Shown: piece after piece, positions 1-30,479 of the stretch
How the letters are laid out: every line of letters begins with the position of its first letter
How positions within the stretch are numbered: the stretch's first letter is position 1
From: Ignavibacteria bacterium
GTDB taxonomy: Bacteria > Bacteroidota > Ignavibacteria > Kapaibacteriales > UBA2268
Assembly (NCBI GenBank): GCA_012518115.1
Contig: JAAYTD010000086.1
Location: 1 to 32,428, forward strand
Direction: 5' to 3'
Length of the DNA stretch: 32,428 nucleotides
Position numbers and translations under genes: made by a program
Notes under the pieces: generated by a model
What the model was told of the DNA's origin: nothing
The model's input: the letters and a program-made list of their open reading frames with translations, nothing else
Database searches by the model: none

Positions 1-48
1 CATAGCACATTGAGAGCGTGGCGAGGTCGCGCTGTGAACCTTTTATTC
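1..48 (+). ncRNA. possible 3' end of a fifth copy of the tandem small RNA
   Basis: The sequence CTGTGAACCTTTT near positions 32-44 differs by one base from the 3' closing arm and U-tract of the first complete copy (CTATGAACCTTTT at 214-226). It is preceded by a GC-rich stretch that could be the remainder of the RNA body. The 5' arm would lie outside the window, so pairing cannot be tested. The segment from 49 to 118 differs from the spacers between the complete copies and holds a small hairpin at 87-99 (ATGGC/GCCAT). Confidence 0.35.
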
Positions 49-118
49 TTTTTAGACGTGGCGTAATACCTTCTGAGTCATTTTATATGGCAAAGCCATC
101 TTTCAATTTAGCTTTAAA

Positions 119-229
119 AATAGGTTTATGGTGGACTGAGCAGCCCACACTCGCAAGAGTGAGTTTTCCTATAAGGATCCTAGAAAAGGAAAACGCAGGG
201 CACGTGTGAAACACTATGAACCTTTTTTT
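119..229 (+). ncRNA. tandem structured small RNA, copy 1
   Basis: The closing stem pairs 122-133 with 212-223 (12 bp, two G-U pairs) and runs into seven T's at 223-229, so the stem probably also works as the intrinsic terminator. Inside lie an internal loop and a GCCC/GGGC helix (143-146 with 198-201). That helix opens into two hairpins: CACTC-GCAA-GAGTG at 148-161, with a GNRA tetraloop, and a longer variable hairpin (163-169 with 188-194). A -7-like TAGCTTTA sits at 109-116, but no good -33 element is visible. Function unknown; I do not recognise the family. Confidence 0.75.
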
Positions 230-249
230 ATTTGTATTTCAAAAATAAT

Positions 250-281
250 TTTGTTTTTCTAAAAAAAATGTGGTATATTTG
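250..281 (+). promoter_or_regulatory. promoter of small RNA copy 2
   Basis: TTTG (250-253), a 20-nt spacer and TATATTTG (274-281) fit the Bacteroidota primary-sigma form TTTG...TAnnTTTG. The RNA's closing stem begins 4 nt downstream, where a start site would be expected. The A-rich block TTTCAAAAATAAT just upstream (237-249) recurs exactly before the promoters of copies 3 and 4. Confidence 0.8.
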
Positions 282-284
282 TGT

Positions 285-384
285 ATAGGTTTATAGTCTA
301 AGCAGTACGCCCCCGCTCGCAAGAGCGAGTTTCTTTTTAGAAATCGTAGGGCAATATACACACTTACTATAAACCTATTTTTTT
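285..384 (+). ncRNA. tandem structured small RNA, copy 2
   Basis: This is the cleanest copy. The closing stem pairs 285-297 with 366-378, 13 bp without mismatch, and ends in T's at 378-384. The inner helix is GCCC/GGGC (309-312 with 349-352). The first hairpin is CGCTC-GCAA-GAGCG (314-327), so the A-T pair of copy 1 has become G-C, a compensatory change. The second hairpin is short (330-334 with 339-343, loop TTTT). Total length is about 100 nt. It has its own promoter. No open reading frame worth calling lies inside it. Confidence 0.8.
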
Positions 385-409
385 ATTTTCAATTGTTTTC
401 AAAAATAAT

Positions 410-441
410 TTTGTTTTTCTCAAAAAATTGTTGTATGTTTG
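410..441 (+). promoter_or_regulatory. promoter of small RNA copy 3
   Basis: TTTG (410-413), a 20-nt spacer and TATGTTTG (434-441) match the Bacteroidota promoter form. The upstream A-rich block TTTTCAAAAATAAT (396-409) is shared with the other copies. Confidence 0.8.
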
Positions 442-450
442 TAATTAGAA

Positions 451-583
451 AATAGACTTACAGTGGACTGAGCAAGCCCCCGCTCGCAAGAGTGAGTTTC
501 TCGAAAAAGTGTCAAAAAACGAGCTCCACTTTTTCTTGTAGGAACAAAGGGGCACCGTGCAAAACACTATAGGTCTATTTTTT
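451..583 (+). ncRNA. tandem structured small RNA, copy 3
   Basis: The closing stem pairs 451-465 with 565-579 (one mismatch, one G-U) and ends in T's at 578-583. Its sequence differs from the other copies (AGACT in place of AGGTT), and the opposite arm has changed to match (GTCT in place of ACCT). The inner helix is GCCCC/GGGGC (476-480 with 549-553). The GCAA hairpin lies at 481-494 and includes one G-U pair. The second hairpin is the longest of the four (503-511 with 527-535, 9 bp, plus a 15-nt loop) and accounts for the 133-nt length. Confidence 0.8.
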
Positions 584-602
584 ATTTGTATTTCAAAAAT
601 AA

Positions 603-633
603 TTGGTTGTTTCAAAAAAATGTGGTATACTTG
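603..633 (+). promoter_or_regulatory. promoter of small RNA copy 4
   Basis: TTG (603-605), a 20-nt spacer and TATACTTG (626-633) form a slightly weakened version of the promoters of copies 2 and 3. The block TTTCAAAAATAAT (591-603) lies just upstream. The 21 bases around the -7 box and start (621-641) differ from those of copy 2 at a single position. Confidence 0.7.
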
Positions 634-635
634 TG

Positions 636-738
636 TATAGGTTTATAGCGGAACCAACGCGCTCCCGCTCGCAAGAGTGAATTTCTTTTTAGAAACGATA
701 GGAGCACTGCGTGAAACGATATAAACCTATTTTTTTTT
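636..738 (+). ncRNA. tandem structured small RNA, copy 4
   Basis: The closing stem pairs 637-650 with 717-730 (one mismatch) and ends in nine T's (730-738). The inner helix is GCTCC/GGAGC (661-665 with 701-705). Relative to copy 3, a C-G pair has become T-A on both sides, a double compensatory change. It may extend through ACGC/GCGT (657-660 with 709-712) past a 3-nt bulge. The GCAA hairpin (666-679) and a short second hairpin (682-686 with 691-695, loop TTTT) complete the fold. Confidence 0.8.
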
Positions 739-3537: not shown

Positions 3538-5532
3538 TTAGTACTCTTGCAGTATTAAAACATTATATCCGTTTTGTTCCGTACCGTAAAAAATTACAGA
3601 ATAATTTTTTCTTAAAGTCATCATCAAATCAGGAACTTTAGCAACCATTTTTCCTGTTTGTTGATTTTCAAAAAATAGAGCTATTTTCTTTTCTCTAGTT
3701 ATAGTTTCAATTTCAGAAGCAGTTTTATAGTGAATATTTTCTTGAAGTATTGCCTCAATAGCATCGGTAGAATCCGATTTTACACGTAGCGTTGGAACGT
3801 CAGTTGCAGCATTAACATAACGGCGTTTATAGTTTGTGCTATCAGCTCCAAGATATGGCGATTGAATAGCAAAAACATCTGTTTGAGTGCTATTGCCTGT
3901 AGCTACAATCAAAATTCTGTCTGTTTTTGATGCTGTTAAATTATAATTAAATCCATTGATCGTAACAGTATTATTGCCTTCTTCAACAAAAGTTGCTAAA
4001 GAATTAGCAGGATCCAACTTAGCAGCATTTAAAATTTTTGGCAATTCTATGTTAATCTGTTTGTTATCAGAAGTTGCATTTACGATTTGCATAAAAGCTG
4101 CTTGTTTTGTAAACATTACAGGAATAGTTTCTTCTGCCTCTTCTATAACGGTAAGTTTTCCGTCATTATTACCTTCAGAAAAATCCACTGCTATAATATA
4201 ATTTTTATTAGCTTCAAAAACAACGTTTGTACTAAATAAATAGCGTGCTGGCTCAGTAGAAGTAAATACTGATAGAGGAATAATTCCAGGATTAATAGCT
4301 ACCACTTTAGATAACTCACCAGCGGACAAGGCATTAGCTAGTACATCTCCTGACACATAATTATGAGAATTTGAATTATCGTAACGTGCACCAGCAGATA
4401 TATTTATACCACTTTCTTTGAAATTACAATTAATTACTCTGACAAGTGCTTTATTTCCAACGTTATAAGGTAGTTGTTTTATTGGTGGCACTATCATTAA
4501 ATTCTCTGCCTTGTTTTCTTTTGAATTAAGGACAATAGCAGTAAATTTTTTAAATATCTCAAAAGATATTAAAGCAGAATCTCTAACTTCTTCATTGCAT
4601 AAGAGTTTTAGTTTATCTTTCAATAAATTATCACAAGAATTGATTTTATGGTATTTATCAATAAAATTTGGATTTAAATTAGATACAATTTCGCTTTCTT
4701 CATTATTTATCGTTACATTTTCAGAAGATAAATTTATTATGCGGATATAAGCTTCACGTTCTGTAACTAGCTTCGGAGTAGTTAGAATATTATTGTCATC
4801 TGAGAGCTCGTCAACAAAAAATACTTCTTCATTTCTGTTAATTATAATAGCGTATTGACCTTGCGGTAAGAGCTCTAACTCATAAACTCCTAACAGCTTA
4901 GTATTTTGTGTTGTATCTATATCATTCTTTGTTGTTTTAGTAATAGAAAAAACGCGAGTTCCTTTATGTATATTAGCAATTCCACTTGATTTTTTATAGG
5001 ATAAATTTCGAAAGATAACACTGTCATTTGGACAACCTAATCGCAATGTATAGTTAACAGTTGTATCATTATTTGCATTGAACATTTTTATGTAACAATC
5101 ATTTGTATCTCGCGGTGGAACAGAAGTTGTTTGTATTCTAACAATTGTATCAACAGCTTTATAATTACTAGCTCCAATGGGGGAGGGAAGTGTCATAATA
5201 ATATAGCGCGTTTTTCTTGCAAATTTTTGTTTGAGATCACCTGTTGTAAACTCTATATTTCCATCTTTAAAAACTTCAATTTGAACGGAATCAAAAGGTG
5301 GGGGAAGAGGCGAAGAGATTGTATTATAAACTATATTTTCATATTTAGATATTTTCTCTAAAACCATTGTACGCGGTTGTTCATCTCCTGCGAAATTGAG
5401 GAAACGTACTCGCACTGTTTCAAAGATAGTTGGCGGATTGACTAAAGCATCATTTTCTCGTGCACACGATGCAATGAAAATGAGCATAGTAAAATATAAA
5501 AATATAGTATTGAATTTTCTGTACTTGTTCAT
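3538..5532 (-). CDS. large lipoprotein with six repeated beta-type modules (DUF4397-like)
   Basis: The N-terminus has a lipoprotein signal (hydrophobic 8-20, lipobox ending at Cys23), so the 664-residue product should be anchored on the periplasmic or outer side of the envelope. A short motif of the form [V/I]R[V/F/I][L/V/I]N recurs six times: VRFLNFAGD (42), YIKMFNAN (147), YIRIINLSS (262), LVRVINCNF (363), MQIVNATSD (481) and RRYVNAATD (571). Similar openings mark DUF4397/Ig-like domains of secreted Bacteroidota proteins. The family name is tentative and the function unknown. It is first in the run leading to thiS, thiE and rodA and has a clear promoter upstream. Confidence 0.7.
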   Translation of the reverse strand: MNKYRKFNTIFLYFTMLIFIASCARENDALVNPPTIFETVRVRFLNFAGDEQPRTMVLEKISKYENIVYNTISSPLPPPFDSVQIEVFKDGNIEFTTGDLKQKFARKTRYIIMTLPSPIGASNYKAVDTIVRIQTTSVPPRDTNDCYIKMFNANNDTTVNYTLRLGCPNDSVIFRNLSYKKSSGIANIHKGTRVFSITKTTKNDIDTTQNTKLLGVYELELLPQGQYAIIINRNEEVFFVDELSDDNNILTTPKLVTEREAYIRIINLSSENVTINNEESEIVSNLNPNFIDKYHKINSCDNLLKDKLKLLCNEEVRDSALISFEIFKKFTAIVLNSKENKAENLMIVPPIKQLPYNVGNKALVRVINCNFKESGINISAGARYDNSNSHNYVSGDVLANALSAGELSKVVAINPGIIPLSVFTSTEPARYLFSTNVVFEANKNYIIAVDFSEGNNDGKLTVIEEAEETIPVMFTKQAAFMQIVNATSDNKQINIELPKILNAAKLDPANSLATFVEEGNNTVTINGFNYNLTASKTDRILIVATGNSTQTDVFAIQSPYLGADSTNYKRRYVNAATDVPTLRVKSDSTDAIEAILQENIHYKTASEIETITREKKIALFFENQQTGKMVAKVPDLMMTLRKNYSVIFYGTEQNGYNVLILQEY

Positions 5533-9218: not shown

Positions 9219-9713
9219 ATGCAATTAGTTTTACTTTCATTAGGTTCTAGCATAGGGGACAGAAAGAAAAATATAGATAATGCCTTGTATTTATTAGAAC
9301 TTGTAGGTGTTAAACAACAACGACAATCTTCTTATTATGAAACGGAACCTGTAGGTGGTGTTGCAAATAATAAATTCTTAAATATTGCTTTTCTTGCTCA
9401 AACAAATTTTACACCCAAAGAATTGCTTTTTATTTGCAAATCAATTGAGTTTTCATTGGGTAGGCGAGTTGCAAAAACGTGGGCTGACCGTGAAATTGAC
9501 ATTGATATATTACTTTATGAAGATGAAATAATAGAAACGTCTTTTTTGCAAATACCGCATCCTTCTTTTCATAATAGAAGATTTGCGTTAGAACCTGCTG
9601 TTGAAATAGCATCAAATATGGTGCATCCTAAATTTAAAAAAAAACTTGATCATTTATTGAAAGAATGTCAAGACAAAAATGAAGTAAAAAAATTATTAAA
9701 TATAAAAATATAA
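9219..9713 (+). CDS. folK: HPPK, 2-amino-4-hydroxy-6-hydroxymethyldihydropteridine diphosphokinase
   Basis: FolK transfers pyrophosphate from ATP to 6-hydroxymethyl-dihydropterin, giving the substrate for dihydropteroate synthase. Visible signatures are LSLGSSIGDRKKNI at the N-terminus, SSYYETEPVGG, FLNIAF, EFSLGRR, the catalytic and metal-binding ADREIDIDIL and IPHPSFHNRRFALEP. Length (164 residues) is normal. It is paired with folB upstream; folP is not in the window. Confidence 0.95.
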   Translation: MQLVLLSLGSSIGDRKKNIDNALYLLELVGVKQQRQSSYYETEPVGGVANNKFLNIAFLAQTNFTPKELLFICKSIEFSLGRRVAKTWADREIDIDILLYEDEIIETSFLQIPHPSFHNRRFALEPAVEIASNMVHPKFKKKLDHLLKECQDKNEVKKLLNIKI

Positions 9714-9722
9714 AACAAAAAT

Positions 9723-10622
9723 ATGAAAAAAATTGTTATTCATGAAGTTGGAATGCGAGATGGGCTCCAACCAGAAAAAGAAATTGTACCGTTAGAAACA
9801 AAAATAAAATGGTGCGAAAAGCTTATTGAAGCGAATGTTGATATTATACAAATAGGTTCTTTTGTGCATCCCGTAAAAGTACCACAAATGGCAACAACAG
9901 ACGATATATTTCGTCATTTTCAAGAGAAAAAGCCCAAAAACACTATTCTTTCTTGTTTGGTTTTGAATGAAAAGGGAATGGAACGTGGGATGGCTGTAGG
10001 TGCTGATATGTATTGTATGGGAGTTTCAGCAAGTGAAACACATAGCAAAAAAAATACAGGAATGACTACCGATGAAGCTTTAACAAGAATAATTTCTATG
10101 GCAAAATTAGCAATGGAATCTTCTTTAGCTGTACAAGTTTCTGTTCAATCTGCATTTGGATGTGGATTTGAAGGAAAAATCCCTTACGAAAGAGTTTATT
10201 CTATAATTGATAAATACTTAAATGCAGGTATTAAGCAAATTAGCTTAGCTGATACCGCTGGACATGCTTATCCTGAACAAGTTACAGAAATGTTTTCTAA
10301 AATAAAGAAAATGGATCCTGATGTTGTACTTACTTGTCATTTCCATAATACTTATGGACTTGGAATGGCAAATATTTATGCTGCAATACAAGCAGGTGTA
10401 ACTAATTTTGAAACAGCATTTGGAGGAATGGGTGGATGTCCATTTACAAAAGTTGCTGCCGGAAATGTTAGTACCGAAGACTTTGTTTATTATTTACAAA
10501 AACAAAATCTTAGAGATGATATTAATATAAATTTACTTATAGAAACGGCAAATATGGCAAGCGAATTTTTTAAGCGACCTTTATCAGGATATGTTTATAA
10601 AATAAATAATCCTACGTCTTAG
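9723..10622 (+). CDS. mvaB: hydroxymethylglutaryl-CoA lyase family protein
   Basis: HMG-CoA lyase splits HMG-CoA to acetyl-CoA and acetoacetate, the last step of leucine breakdown and of ketone-body formation. The 299-residue TIM-barrel protein shows the metal-site opening HEVGMRDGLQPEK, GSFVHP, VSASETHSKKNTG, FGCGFEGKI, LADTAGHAYPEQ, CHFHNTYGLGMANI and the catalytic-cysteine loop GGMGGCPF. The relative order excludes 2-isopropylmalate or citramalate synthase, which are longer. Exact substrate is inferred from the family. It is last in the lptC run, ahead of a hairpin and a bidirectional terminator. Confidence 0.85.
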   Translation: MKKIVIHEVGMRDGLQPEKEIVPLETKIKWCEKLIEANVDIIQIGSFVHPVKVPQMATTDDIFRHFQEKKPKNTILSCLVLNEKGMERGMAVGADMYCMGVSASETHSKKNTGMTTDEALTRIISMAKLAMESSLAVQVSVQSAFGCGFEGKIPYERVYSIIDKYLNAGIKQISLADTAGHAYPEQVTEMFSKIKKMDPDVVLTCHFHNTYGLGMANIYAAIQAGVTNFETAFGGMGGCPFTKVAAGNVSTEDFVYYLQKQNLRDDININLLIETANMASEFFKRPLSGYVYKINNPTS

Positions 10623-10788: not shown

Positions 10789-12855
10789 TTATGCAGAAAT
10801 ATTTTGTGCTTCTAATGGTTTGCTTAAGTCTTTTTTCGTAATTTTGTGAGTTTCATATACTCTTTGAACGAGCTCTGCAACATCAACTATCATAATTACA
10901 CTTCCATCTCCCATTATAGTTGAACCTGATATTGCTTTTATAGTACCTAGATATTCCCCTAGTGATTTAATAACTACTTCTTGTTGACCAAGTAAACCAT
11001 CAACAACAATTCCTATTTGTTGCGAACCTACTCCCACTATTACGACATAGCTATTTCTTCCCTTTCCCTCTACATCGGGAACTTCTAAAGCCTCATCTAA
11101 TCTTAACAATGGTATAACATCTTCACGAATACGAATAACTTCAACTTGGTTTAATGTATATATGCTATGTGAAGCTACCGAAACCACGTTTAGGACAGAG
11201 CTTAACGGTATAGCAAAACGTTCTTTACCAGAAACGACTATTAAACCTTGAATGATAGCTAATGTTAATGGTAACTTGATAAAGAAAGTGGTACCTTTGC
11301 CAATTTCTGTTTCTATATCAACATATCCTTTCAAATCTGCTATATTCGTTCTTACCACGTCCATTCCTACACCACGTCCAGATACTGAAGTGACTTTAGC
11401 AGCAGTACTAAATCCTGGAGCAAATATTAATTGCAAAGCATCTCTTTTTGACATATTTGCTGCTTGTTCAGATGTTATAACTCCTCTTTCTACAGCACGT
11501 TTCTTTAAAAATTCTTCATCCATACCTTTGCCGTCGTCAGTAATCTTTAAGACAATACTGTTTCCTTCTTGTTCAGCATCTAAAATTATTGTTCCTACTT
11601 CAGGTTTTCCTGCTGCTATTCTATCTTCTGGTGATTCTATTCCATGGTCACAAGAATTACGGATCATATGAGTTAATGGATCAGTTAGTTCTTCAATAAT
11701 TCCACGATCAATTTCTGTTTCTTCACCTTTAACAATTAAATTTATCTTCTTGTTTGATTCCCTACTTAAATCTCTGACTATTCTGGGTGCTTTTTGATAC
11801 AACCTTCCTACTGGCACCATTCTCATTTTCATAGCTGCACCTTGAATTTCAGAAGTAATGGCATCAATACTTGTAGCTGTTTCTAATAGATCTTTGACAG
11901 AAGTTTTAAATACTTCAAGTGGTATGTCTGAGGCTAGATATTCAGAAAGTTGTAACAATCTATTTCTGTTTAATACAAGTTCACCTGACAAGTCCATAAT
12001 AGCTTCAACTCTAGCTACATCTACACGTATTGTGGTGTCAGCAGTAGTCTTTCCTGGTACTTTAGGAAGAGTTGGTGCTTTTGGAACAGATGTTGTTGTA
12101 CTTTCTTTTGCCGGTGTTTTTTGCTCTGGTGCTTTTTCAGTAGTTACTGGAATAGTTACTTCGTCATCGTCATCATCTTCTACATCATTATATTCATCTT
12201 CTTTGTCAGTATTATCATCACTTTCTACAGTGTTTTGATTTTTTTGTTCTTCCCAAAAATCTGCATTTACATCAAGAAATGCTGCATCAATTAGTTTCAA
12301 TTCGTCATCTGTCCAGTTGTCTGCTCCTTCTCCAAGTTCAGGTCTAGCAAAGACTTCATCTACTGCTCTTTTTTCGCTTTCTTTATGTTTATCTATTTGT
12401 ATATTTTCTTCTGTATCTGAAATTTTTTCTTCATCATTAGCACTTTGAATCGGTTGAGTACCATTTCTTATAGCGTCTATTTTTGCTATAGTGCCTGAAT
12501 AATCTACAGGTGAGTCGTCATCAGATTGTACTTTATTTAACAAGAAAACAATCCAATCTTGCACTTCTAATAATACATCTATTATTCCTTGCGTTACTTC
12601 TAATTCTGATTTTCTTAATTTATTTAATATATCTTCAGCATGGTGTGTAATTCCGGAAATATCATTAAATCCCATAAAAGAAGCTGTTCCTTTTATAGTA
12701 TGAAAACTTCTAAAAAGTTTGTTTATAAGTTCTAAATCGTCAGGATTATTTTCAACTTCTACTATATCTATAGTGATATTTTCAAGTAATTCGTTAGTTT
12801 CTATTAAAAAACCTTCAAAAATTTCCTGCATTTCTGGATCATTAAAAGTAGCCAT
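10789..12855 (-). CDS. cheA: chemotaxis histidine kinase CheA
   Basis: CheA autophosphorylates in response to receptors and passes the phosphate to CheY. The 688-residue protein has an Hpt P1 domain with His52 in FHTIKGTASFMGF. A long acidic and Pro/Thr-rich linker (about 115-272) takes the place of a recognisable P2 CheY-docking domain. The dimerisation helices follow (about 275-345), then an HATPase domain with N-box HMIRNSCDHG (396-405), DDGKGM (440-445) and GRGVGMDV (493-500). A CheW-like P5 domain runs from about 537. It is the last gene of the che run, with the cheZ-like gene 40 bp upstream. Loss of P2 implies direct P1-to-CheY transfer. Confidence 0.93.
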   Translation of the reverse strand: MATFNDPEMQEIFEGFLIETNELLENITIDIVEVENNPDDLELINKLFRSFHTIKGTASFMGFNDISGITHHAEDILNKLRKSELEVTQGIIDVLLEVQDWIVFLLNKVQSDDDSPVDYSGTIAKIDAIRNGTQPIQSANDEEKISDTEENIQIDKHKESEKRAVDEVFARPELGEGADNWTDDELKLIDAAFLDVNADFWEEQKNQNTVESDDNTDKEDEYNDVEDDDDDEVTIPVTTEKAPEQKTPAKESTTTSVPKAPTLPKVPGKTTADTTIRVDVARVEAIMDLSGELVLNRNRLLQLSEYLASDIPLEVFKTSVKDLLETATSIDAITSEIQGAAMKMRMVPVGRLYQKAPRIVRDLSRESNKKINLIVKGEETEIDRGIIEELTDPLTHMIRNSCDHGIESPEDRIAAGKPEVGTIILDAEQEGNSIVLKITDDGKGMDEEFLKKRAVERGVITSEQAANMSKRDALQLIFAPGFSTAAKVTSVSGRGVGMDVVRTNIADLKGYVDIETEIGKGTTFFIKLPLTLAIIQGLIVVSGKERFAIPLSSVLNVVSVASHSIYTLNQVEVIRIREDVIPLLRLDEALEVPDVEGKGRNSYVVIVGVGSQQIGIVVDGLLGQQEVVIKSLGEYLGTIKAISGSTIMGDGSVIMIVDVAELVQRVYETHKITKKDLSKPLEAQNISA

Positions 12856-28555: not shown

Positions 28556-28965
28556 AAAATGTAAAAAAGGCAATCGCTTTTATTTTTATAAAAGAGGAAA
28601 GTCCGAACTCCAAAGAACAGTATGCTTCGTAACGCGAAGGCAATGAATTGTAATGATTTATTGACTGATAGTGCAACAGAAAATATACCGCCTATTTTTA
28701 TAGGTAAGGGTGAAAAGGCAGTGTAAGAGACTACCGTACAGTTGGTAACAACTGTAGCAAGGTAAACCACATATTGGAGCAAAGTCAAATAGTAAAATAT
28801 AATTCCTTTAGGAATCTTAAGTTGTTCGCTTAGGTAATTACAAATAAAAGTAATTTATATTTTTGGGTAGACTGCAAGATAATAATGGCGACATTATTAC
28901 GAGATAAATGATTGCCTCTCAATTTTTATTGAAAGACAGAATTCGGCTTATTTTTTATATTTTAA
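28556..28965 (+). ncRNA. rnpB: RNase P RNA
   Basis: This is the catalytic RNA that trims tRNA 5' leaders. Conserved blocks occur in the right order: GAGGAAAGTCCG (5' strand of P4 region, 28594-28605), GCAACAGA, ACCGCC, GGTAAGGGTGAAA, GTAAGAGACTACCG, GGTAAACC, GGAGCAAAGTCAAATAG, GGGTAGACTGC, and ACAGAATTCGGCTTA near the 3' end. P2 pairs GGCAATC (28569-28575) with GATTGCC (28910-28916). P1 is almost all A-T (28556-28568 with 28951-28963). The size, about 410 nt, is that of a bacterial A-type RNA. Short ORFs on the other strand here are chance. Confidence 0.95.
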
Positions 28966-29005
28966 TTTAATTACTATATTCTAAATAATTATTAAAAATC
29001 AACTT

Positions 29006-29304
29006 ATGAAACAGTTACCAACAGATCCATTAATTTTAGAATTACTTCCTGAGTTTGTTGATACTTGGATAGCAGATATAAATGAACAATTTACACCTTT
29101 GTGTGAAGCTAAAGATAAAGACAACTTCTATCGTCTTGCTCATACTCTAAAAGGTTCAGGTTTCCAATTTGGAATAGATGAAATATGGGACTTGAAATGA
29201 TGAGATTAACTAAGGAAGAAAAATGGGAAGAAATTCCTAAATTTAAAGAATTACTGTTGAAAGAATTTGAAGAAACTAAAGAGTTGTTAAATAACTCAAA
29301 TTAA
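29006..29304 (+). pseudogene. histidine-phosphotransfer (Hpt) protein gene with a frameshift
   Basis: The first frame (29006-29200) encodes 64 residues with the Hpt signature YRLAHTLKGSGFQFG, where His46 would carry phosphate, and stops early after GIDEIWDLK. From 29188 the neighbouring frame continues GLEMMRLTKEEKWEEI and runs to TAA at 29302-29304. This is a natural helical Hpt ending of the expected total size (about 99 residues). One lost base near 29186-29188 explains both. It could be a real mutation or a sequencing error. A phosphotransfer protein would suit the nearby CheY-like genes, but no link is shown. Confidence 0.75.
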
Positions 29305-30151: not shown

Positions 30152-30479
30152 CTATCAAAAAAATACATTTTTAGGCTATTTTTTTTGGCTATTATTAGAT
30201 ACATTTATTTTTTTGGCTACTATTAGATATATTTGTTGTAAAATATTTATATGTTCTTCTCGCAATTAAAAGCTTCTAATTAGCTTATAATTCAAAAAAT
30301 AATGCAATAACAGATTTTATTTTGTTATATAATATCTAAATTTGGCAAATCATTTGTGAGAGCTAAGTTTTTCAGAAAAAAAGACGATAATAAGCTATAT
30401 TGTTATTGTTGTTTTTTATTTTTAGATTACAACTTAAATATAAAGATTTATACTTATAATTTTCGGGAAAATAAATTCT
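30152..30479 (+). promoter_or_regulatory. 330-bp regulatory region before the LamG protein gene
   Basis: No gene is seen here. Besides the direct repeats, TAAATTTG (30337-30344) matches the -7 element exactly. Overlapping it, TGGCAAATCATTTGT (30343-30357) resembles a sigma-54 promoter, with GG and TTG correctly spaced, but the conserved C at -12 is T. The start codon of the next gene is 120 bp further on. The sequence is A/T-rich throughout, so these are candidates only. Confidence 0.35.
30181..30234 (+). repeat. two-copy 26-bp direct repeat in an intergenic region
   Basis: TTTTTTGGCTATTATTAGAT (start of copy 1, 30181) and TTTTTTGGCTACTATTAGAT (start of copy 2, 30209) recur with a 28-bp period; the full 26-bp copies differ at two positions. 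The second copy runs into TATATTTG (30228-30235), a match to the -7 box, though without a TTTG at the right distance. The repeats may be operator sites. Confidence 0.55.

Follow-up and report, generated by a model that had tools for sequence, protein, structure and literature searches.

Structured RNA units at the start of the window

The window, i.e. the whole 32,428-nucleotide stretch analysed here (contig JAAYTD010000086.1 of an Ignavibacteria bacterium), opens with the 3' part of an RNA-like element, h1, followed on the same strand by four units, u1–u4, that can be aligned with one another over their length. The fold common to the units consists of a long closing stem (P1), an internal loop, and a stem P2 that opens into two hairpins, P3 and P4. 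The features are the following (R1 is the covariance model described below; z compares the fold with those of dinucleotide shuffles):

1–118, + strand: 3' part of h1 (RNA-like, about 153 nt), which occupies 10553–10705 of contig C35, where its 5' part and promoter lie
120–224, + strand: structured RNA u1, internal loop of type I (GACUGA/GAAA), without a promoter of its own; R1 61.6 bits, E 4.7e-13; z −4.77
223–229, + strand: U-tract of u1, seven T directly 3' of the P1 3' arm
251–281, + strand: promoter of u2, TTG at 251–253, 20 nt spacer, TATATTTG at 274–281
285–377, + strand: structured RNA u2, loop of type II (AAGCAGUA/UAUACACACUU); R1 74.9 bits, E 1.8e-16; z −5.37
285–297 and 366–378, + strand: P1 arms of u2
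378–384, + strand: U-tract of u2
411–441, + strand: promoter of u3, TTG at 411–413, 20 nt spacer, TATGTTTG at 434–441
452–577, + strand: structured RNA u3, loop of type I, long P4 arm; R1 60.3 bits, E 1e-12; z −4.27
578–583, + strand: U-tract of u3
603–633, + strand: promoter of u4, TTG at 603–605, 20 nt spacer, TATACTTG at 626–633 (5 of 6 consensus letters)
637–729, + strand: structured RNA u4, variant loop of type I (GAACCAA/GAAA); R1 102.5 bits, E 1.4e-23 (circular, as for all seed copies, u4 being one of the four R1 seed sequences); z −4.82
730–738, + strand: U-tract of u4

The first-pass annotation had described four structured RNAs of one shared fold at positions 119–738, each with a U-tract placed directly on the closing stem. 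This description stands: all four units fold far better than dinucleotide shuffles (z −4.3 to −5.4), none of the 200 shuffles of each unit folding as well as the unit itself; all four match R1, with E-values ranging from 1.4e-23 (that of the seed copy u4) to 1e-12; and 6–9 T directly follow P1 in every case.

Twenty-two elements in three arrays

Contig C35 ends in the same 118 bases with which the window begins, and the full stretch occurs in no other contig. C35 and the window are therefore most likely neighbours, a join that is deduced from this overlap and is not present in the assembly. With the model R1, which was built from the four copies u4, k1, k4 and s3, 14 copies are detected at E<1e-5 across the window and three more contigs of this genome, in addition to a pair of weak matches (E about 5e-4 and 2e-3). 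Altogether, 22 elements are distributed over three arrays, the window stretch being the 3' end of the largest one. Outside the window, they are arranged as follows:

C35 8858–10707: units a, b, c, d, e, f and g and element h1 (eight elements)
C48 4212–5067: k1, h2, k2, k3, h3, k4 and g2 (seven elements)
C48 (L010) 4360–4488 and 4718–4844: h2 and h3, relatives of h1 at 84%
C72 33973–34353: s1, s2 and s3 (three elements)

The tandem array noticed in the window thus exists, with its four units in place, but its extent had been set too small, since it starts about 1.85 kb upstream on C35, and the picture of a single array of four gives way to the one above. The copies are confined to the three arrays: no solitary copy was found elsewhere in the genome.

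Promoters and transcript ends

The sigma-A box of Bacteroidota, which spans positions −12 to −5, is of the TAnnTTTG type (PMC9723704). Three of the four window units (u2, u3 and u4) carry a promoter of the form TTG-N20-TAnnTTTG, with the TTG exactly 20 nt upstream of the box. No −7/−33 promoter was found for u1, which has h1 directly upstream (window 1–118), so that the earlier proposal of a promoter on every unit applies to u2–u4 and not to u1. The transcription starts suggested near 121, 285, 451 and 637 have to be revised in the same way: the predicted ones lie at about 286, 446 and 638, and none lies near 121.

Over the three arrays, a full promoter located at most 14 nt from the element precedes 17 of the 22 elements (16 with a spacing of exactly 20 nt), compared with 0.68 expected when these upstream regions are shuffled with a first-order Markov model. 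Of the remaining five, u1, k2 and k4 each follow an h element directly, k3 comes immediately after k2, and h3 has a −7 box and lacks the −33 box. Thus, contrary to what had been assumed, the units are not all autonomous. Runs of 4–9 T lie behind all 19 hairpin units. The predicted starts coincide with the first bases of P1, or lie about 6 bases ahead of it where the spacer is longer, implying that the 5' end of the transcripts would be paired or nearly so.

Covariation and strand

The fold was examined in an alignment of 14 copies (A7). Since A7 was aligned to fit the model structure and the copies are related paralogues of one genome, possibly exchanging sequence by recombination, the following figures lean towards the model: 96.7% of the cells hold standard base pairs, compared with 89.8% in shuffles; changes on both sides are seen in 12 of the 29 pairs, compared with 5.5 in shuffles, every helix containing at least one such pair; and covariation scores 0.342, compared with 0.200 after shuffling of the columns and no more than 0.107 after sliding of the partners. 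The gap between the true and the slid scores is nevertheless wide. The non-Watson–Crick cells comprise 31 G-U and 3 A-C, an imbalance which indicates that the + strand works as RNA and which is unexpected for a DNA palindrome or for an RNA made from the opposite strand. No reading frame is common to the copies, whose longest ORFs do not exceed 28 codons. Judging from these sequence features, the arrays very probably hold genuine structured RNA genes, and the covariation and the G-U count agree with the + strand proposed at first sight.

Constant and variable modules

The modules of the fold differ in their conservation. P1 (11–14 bp, adjoining the U-run) shows a mean pairwise identity of 81% and P2–P3 of 69%, as against 41% for the internal loop and 39% for P4. 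The P3 loop has 4 nt, mostly GCAA, UCAA or GAAA, and P3 reads CNCUC-NNAA-GAGYG in most copies, whereas P4 is a variable hairpin of very different lengths between copies. The internal loops fall into three types: type I (GACUGA or GACCAA with GAAA) in u1, u3, u4, k1, k2, k4, s1 and s2; type II (AAGCAGUA with UAUACACACUU) in u2 and a, and by eye in k3; and type III (GGAAAUA with UAUAUGACU), assigned by eye to b and f, the aligned loops of which are only 25% identical. The predicted folds pair most of the bases and bury the 5' end. In g, g2 and k3, a single hairpin is predicted in place of P3–P4, suggesting that several apical architectures are mounted on the same kind of closing stem.

Unit a looks like a product of recombination between copies: its internal loop is 81% identical to that of u2, whereas its P4 is 70% identical to that of u3 and 26% to that of u2. 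The internal loop and P4 thus look as if they had been reshuffled between copies, a mosaic pattern from which one could learn how genes for non-coding RNAs diversify.

The h elements are about 130–153 nt long and have a promoter-like box and a conserved core, ATTGAGAGCGTGGCGAGGT. In all three cases, h stands directly upstream of a promoterless unit (u1, k2 or k4) and runs on into it with no T-run between the two, which is why we read h-u1, h-k2 and h-k4 as composite transcripts; h1 would be the upstream domain of h1-u1. Taken alone, h folds no better than its shuffles (z −0.73). One helix with a compensatory change can be recognized by eye (AGGUUC/GAACCU and AGGCUC/GAGCCU), which is too little for a model, and CUCUC could form a pseudoknot with GAGAG inside another helix. 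A 16-mer of h matches 38 IMG/VR contigs, which is about what chance would give for 16 bases by a rough estimate.

Distribution and comparison with known RNAs

A covariance-model search of related genomes, as recommended in the first-pass annotation, found copies in the own genome only. More specifically, R1 detected no homologue outside the own genome in 100 relatives, model R2, run with laxer filters, detected none in 40 genomes, and no relative was found in 53 other genomes of the family or in 394 other genomes of the phylum sample; these searches scored only the top-ranked candidates of each genome, a few dozen at most and about nine in the phylum sample. The own genome served as the positive control in the 100-relative, family and phylum searches. 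An exact-pattern scan of the GTDB species genomes returned a single match, which falls within an ABC-transporter-like gene from a Chloroflexota MAG, has no model match and was judged to be due to chance. Pattern scans of IMG/VR and blastn searches of phage and plasmid records yielded no relative. The array is absent downstream of rodA in G003 (L041) and downstream of the permease-like gene in G001 (L082), in which rodA ends 6 bases before the end of its contig. The absence of close sequence relatives from the collections searched is thus well supported, that of distant relatives less so, and the family is known from one genome, which is probably metagenome-assembled.

The units had been said to belong to no known Rfam family, and a search of the window and the array contigs with Rfam 15 agrees: no family reached its gathering score besides RNase P and a tRNA, and at a relaxed E-value only weak matches appeared, far below the gathering scores. 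The RNase P RNA is a bacterial one of class A (window 28557–28966, 239.9 bits).

Three other kinds of element were considered and set aside. Y RNAs are roughly 100 nt long, are closed by the pairing of their ends and bear a U-tail; a partnership with Ro60/Rsr was rejected since the genome, which is 97% complete, gave no TROVE (PF05731) match at E 0.01, in a search whose positive control found a match in Deinobacterium. The attC sites of integrons have an R''/R' arm order opposite to that of the array arms, which begin with GGTTTA and end with TAAACC, and the array units have promoters and T-runs. Finally, the type I loops read CUGA...GAAA, reminiscent of a hammerhead ribozyme, but they have only part of the CUGANGA core and do not form a three-way junction.

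Judged by sequence, the elements appear to form an orphan, modular, multicopy family of structured RNAs with an sRNA-like gene layout and no match to a known family. If expressed, these paralogous structured RNAs would make up a large set for a single bacterial genome, and this in a lineage where few sRNAs have been studied; they would differ from seed-type sRNAs by their near end-to-end folding. The copies of this one genome already give enough covariation to support a structure, so that probing and pull-down of the RNAs could begin at once.

Surroundings of the arrays

The genes seen beside the arrays are ordinary ones. The array of the window adjoins rodA. On C35, the neighbour has no known function and lies behind a putative sigma/anti-sigma pair, the anti-sigma candidate having only a weak zinc-finger match; on C48, it is a permease-like gene; and on C72, dehydrogenase-like and receptor-like genes are found (the pair and the genes on C48 and C72 being named from their translations). 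The neighbours seen thus differ at the three arrays and do not imply a single encoded partner. No integrase or transposase was noticed among the neighbour genes read.

Inside the C35 part of the array, the minus strand carries two small ORFs encoding J-domains (9318–9590 and 9969–10163). Their J-domain matches have E-values of 3e-6, just under the Pfam cut-off, and 6.5e-8, and neither ORF has a match in the 39 other genomes searched or in phage records. Upstream of the first one, and on the strand of this ORF, there is a TATTTTTG box at position about 9642.

A possible role in protein binding

We tentatively propose, with a probability of about 0.4, that the arrays encode constitutively transcribed RNAs that bind a protein, with many copies and variable contacts, rather than seed-type antisense sRNAs. 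Most units would be transcribed singly by the sigma-A RNA polymerase from a start at P1 or a few bases from it, with their 5' end paired, and P1 together with the U-run would end transcription, giving a stable RNA of compact shape; h-u1, h-k2 and h-k4 would each be a composite RNA made from one promoter. A common partner, most likely a protein, would dock on the conserved core formed by P1 and P2–P3; the internal loops and P4 arms, being exchangeable, would give the copies different contacts, and the many copies would raise the dose. The RNAs would then act by sequestering or scaffolding the protein and not by presenting a single-stranded antisense seed. Two features make protein binding, in our judgement, likelier than seed antisense, namely the pairing of most bases and the tetraloop stems that form the best-conserved parts; the argument comes mainly from the absence of an open seed, and the internal loops could still pair with mRNAs. 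The multiple copies may serve dosage or target diversification.

The best-placed alternative, in itself rather unlikely, is that the units are trans-acting antisense sRNAs whose variable internal or P4 loops pair with different mRNAs. The many copies, their distinct variable segments and their separate promoters would suit such a role, and well-studied multicopy sRNAs act in this manner, including FopS in Bacteroides (PMC11697453). FopS is an RbpB-associated, paralogous sRNA family of 14 members, the consensus of which has a single-stranded seed region at the 5' end and, behind it, a terminator hairpin (PMC11697453). It resembles the array family in being from Bacteroidota, in its similar size, in its sigma-A-type promoters and in its intrinsic terminators. 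However, in the predicted folds the 5' end of the array units is paired in P1, no unit has an open single-stranded seed and the units are mostly folded, a structural description that sets them apart from FopS; besides, most of the variable loops are short, conservation is highest in a stem-loop and not in a seed, and FopS is conserved across Bacteroidaceae whereas the array family was found in one genome only. LhrC1–5 of Listeria and other sibling sRNAs are likewise related, partly clustered sRNA genes with promoters of their own, and LhrC acts on mRNAs through exposed unpaired motifs. No exposed motif is apparent in the array units, which are also more numerous and have several architectures. 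By sequence, the arrays do share with multicopy sibling sRNAs the possession of several paralogous genes organized as putative expression units (14 copies at E<1e-5, 17 of 22 elements with promoters). Brt1–9 of Bartonella are similar to the array units in being a genus-specific multicopy sRNA family ending in a stable stem-loop. The array units have no gene directly downstream, however, whereas every brt is followed, after about 15 nt, by a gene for a trp regulator, and Brt1 is an attenuator (PMC8070961).

Somewhat less probable still is that the units are selfish or hitch-hiking RNA genes, for instance remnants of mobile elements or defence islands multiplied by unequal crossing-over, with no function for the host. 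The lack of a match in any other genome searched, the two J-domain mini-genes inside the array, which are equally matchless in the other genomes searched, and the signs of reshuffling are what one might expect of such genes. Conversely, the compensatory changes and the intact promoters of most copies point to selection on the RNA, no integrase or transposase stands out among the neighbours read, and searches of phage, plasmid and viral collections gave no match.

A more elaborate scheme, which we regard as improbable, is a modular repertoire in which a constant scaffold (P1 and P2–P3) would be combined with loops and a hairpin arm swapped between tandem copies by recombination, equipping one bacterium with a varied set of RNAs that bind proteins or nucleic acids, some of them fused to a possibly pseudoknotted h under one promoter.

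It is very unlikely that the units are many diverged copies of a 6S-like RNA that mimics an open promoter and binds RNA polymerase. They do share with 6S (RF00013) and 6S-Flavo (RF01685) the overall plan of a closing stem, an internal bubble and an apical arm. Nevertheless, they are multicopy, their bubbles differ completely between types and share no promoter-like sequence, no Rfam 6S model matches in the array contigs, and the best match of RF01685 in the genome (E 1.68) is not above chance and lies outside the arrays. Note that a typical 6S RNA is longer than the array units.

Lastly, a DNA repeat of the MITE or palindrome type, whose terminal inverted repeats would fold by chance, is largely refuted, since, although P1 is an inverted repeat of 11–14 bp and the most conserved part of clustered copies, a repeat of this kind should keep its termini while losing promoters and inner helices, whereas here the inner helices covary, G-U outnumber A-C cells by 31 to 3, promoters with fixed spacing lie outside the repeat in 17 of 22 cases, and no solitary copy turned up in the rest of the genome.

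Other features of the window

The genome encodes FlhA (L011 10835–12958, above the NCBIfam cut-off) and a CheA-type kinase (window 10789–12855), so that the bacterium probably is or was motile. Between positions 29006 and 29305 of the window, an apparent small Hpt-type gene is broken, by eye, by a frame change, a 64-aa ORF being followed by a second short frame. Finally, a 28-base unit is present twice, head to tail and 89% alike, in an AT-rich intergenic gap at window 30180–30235.
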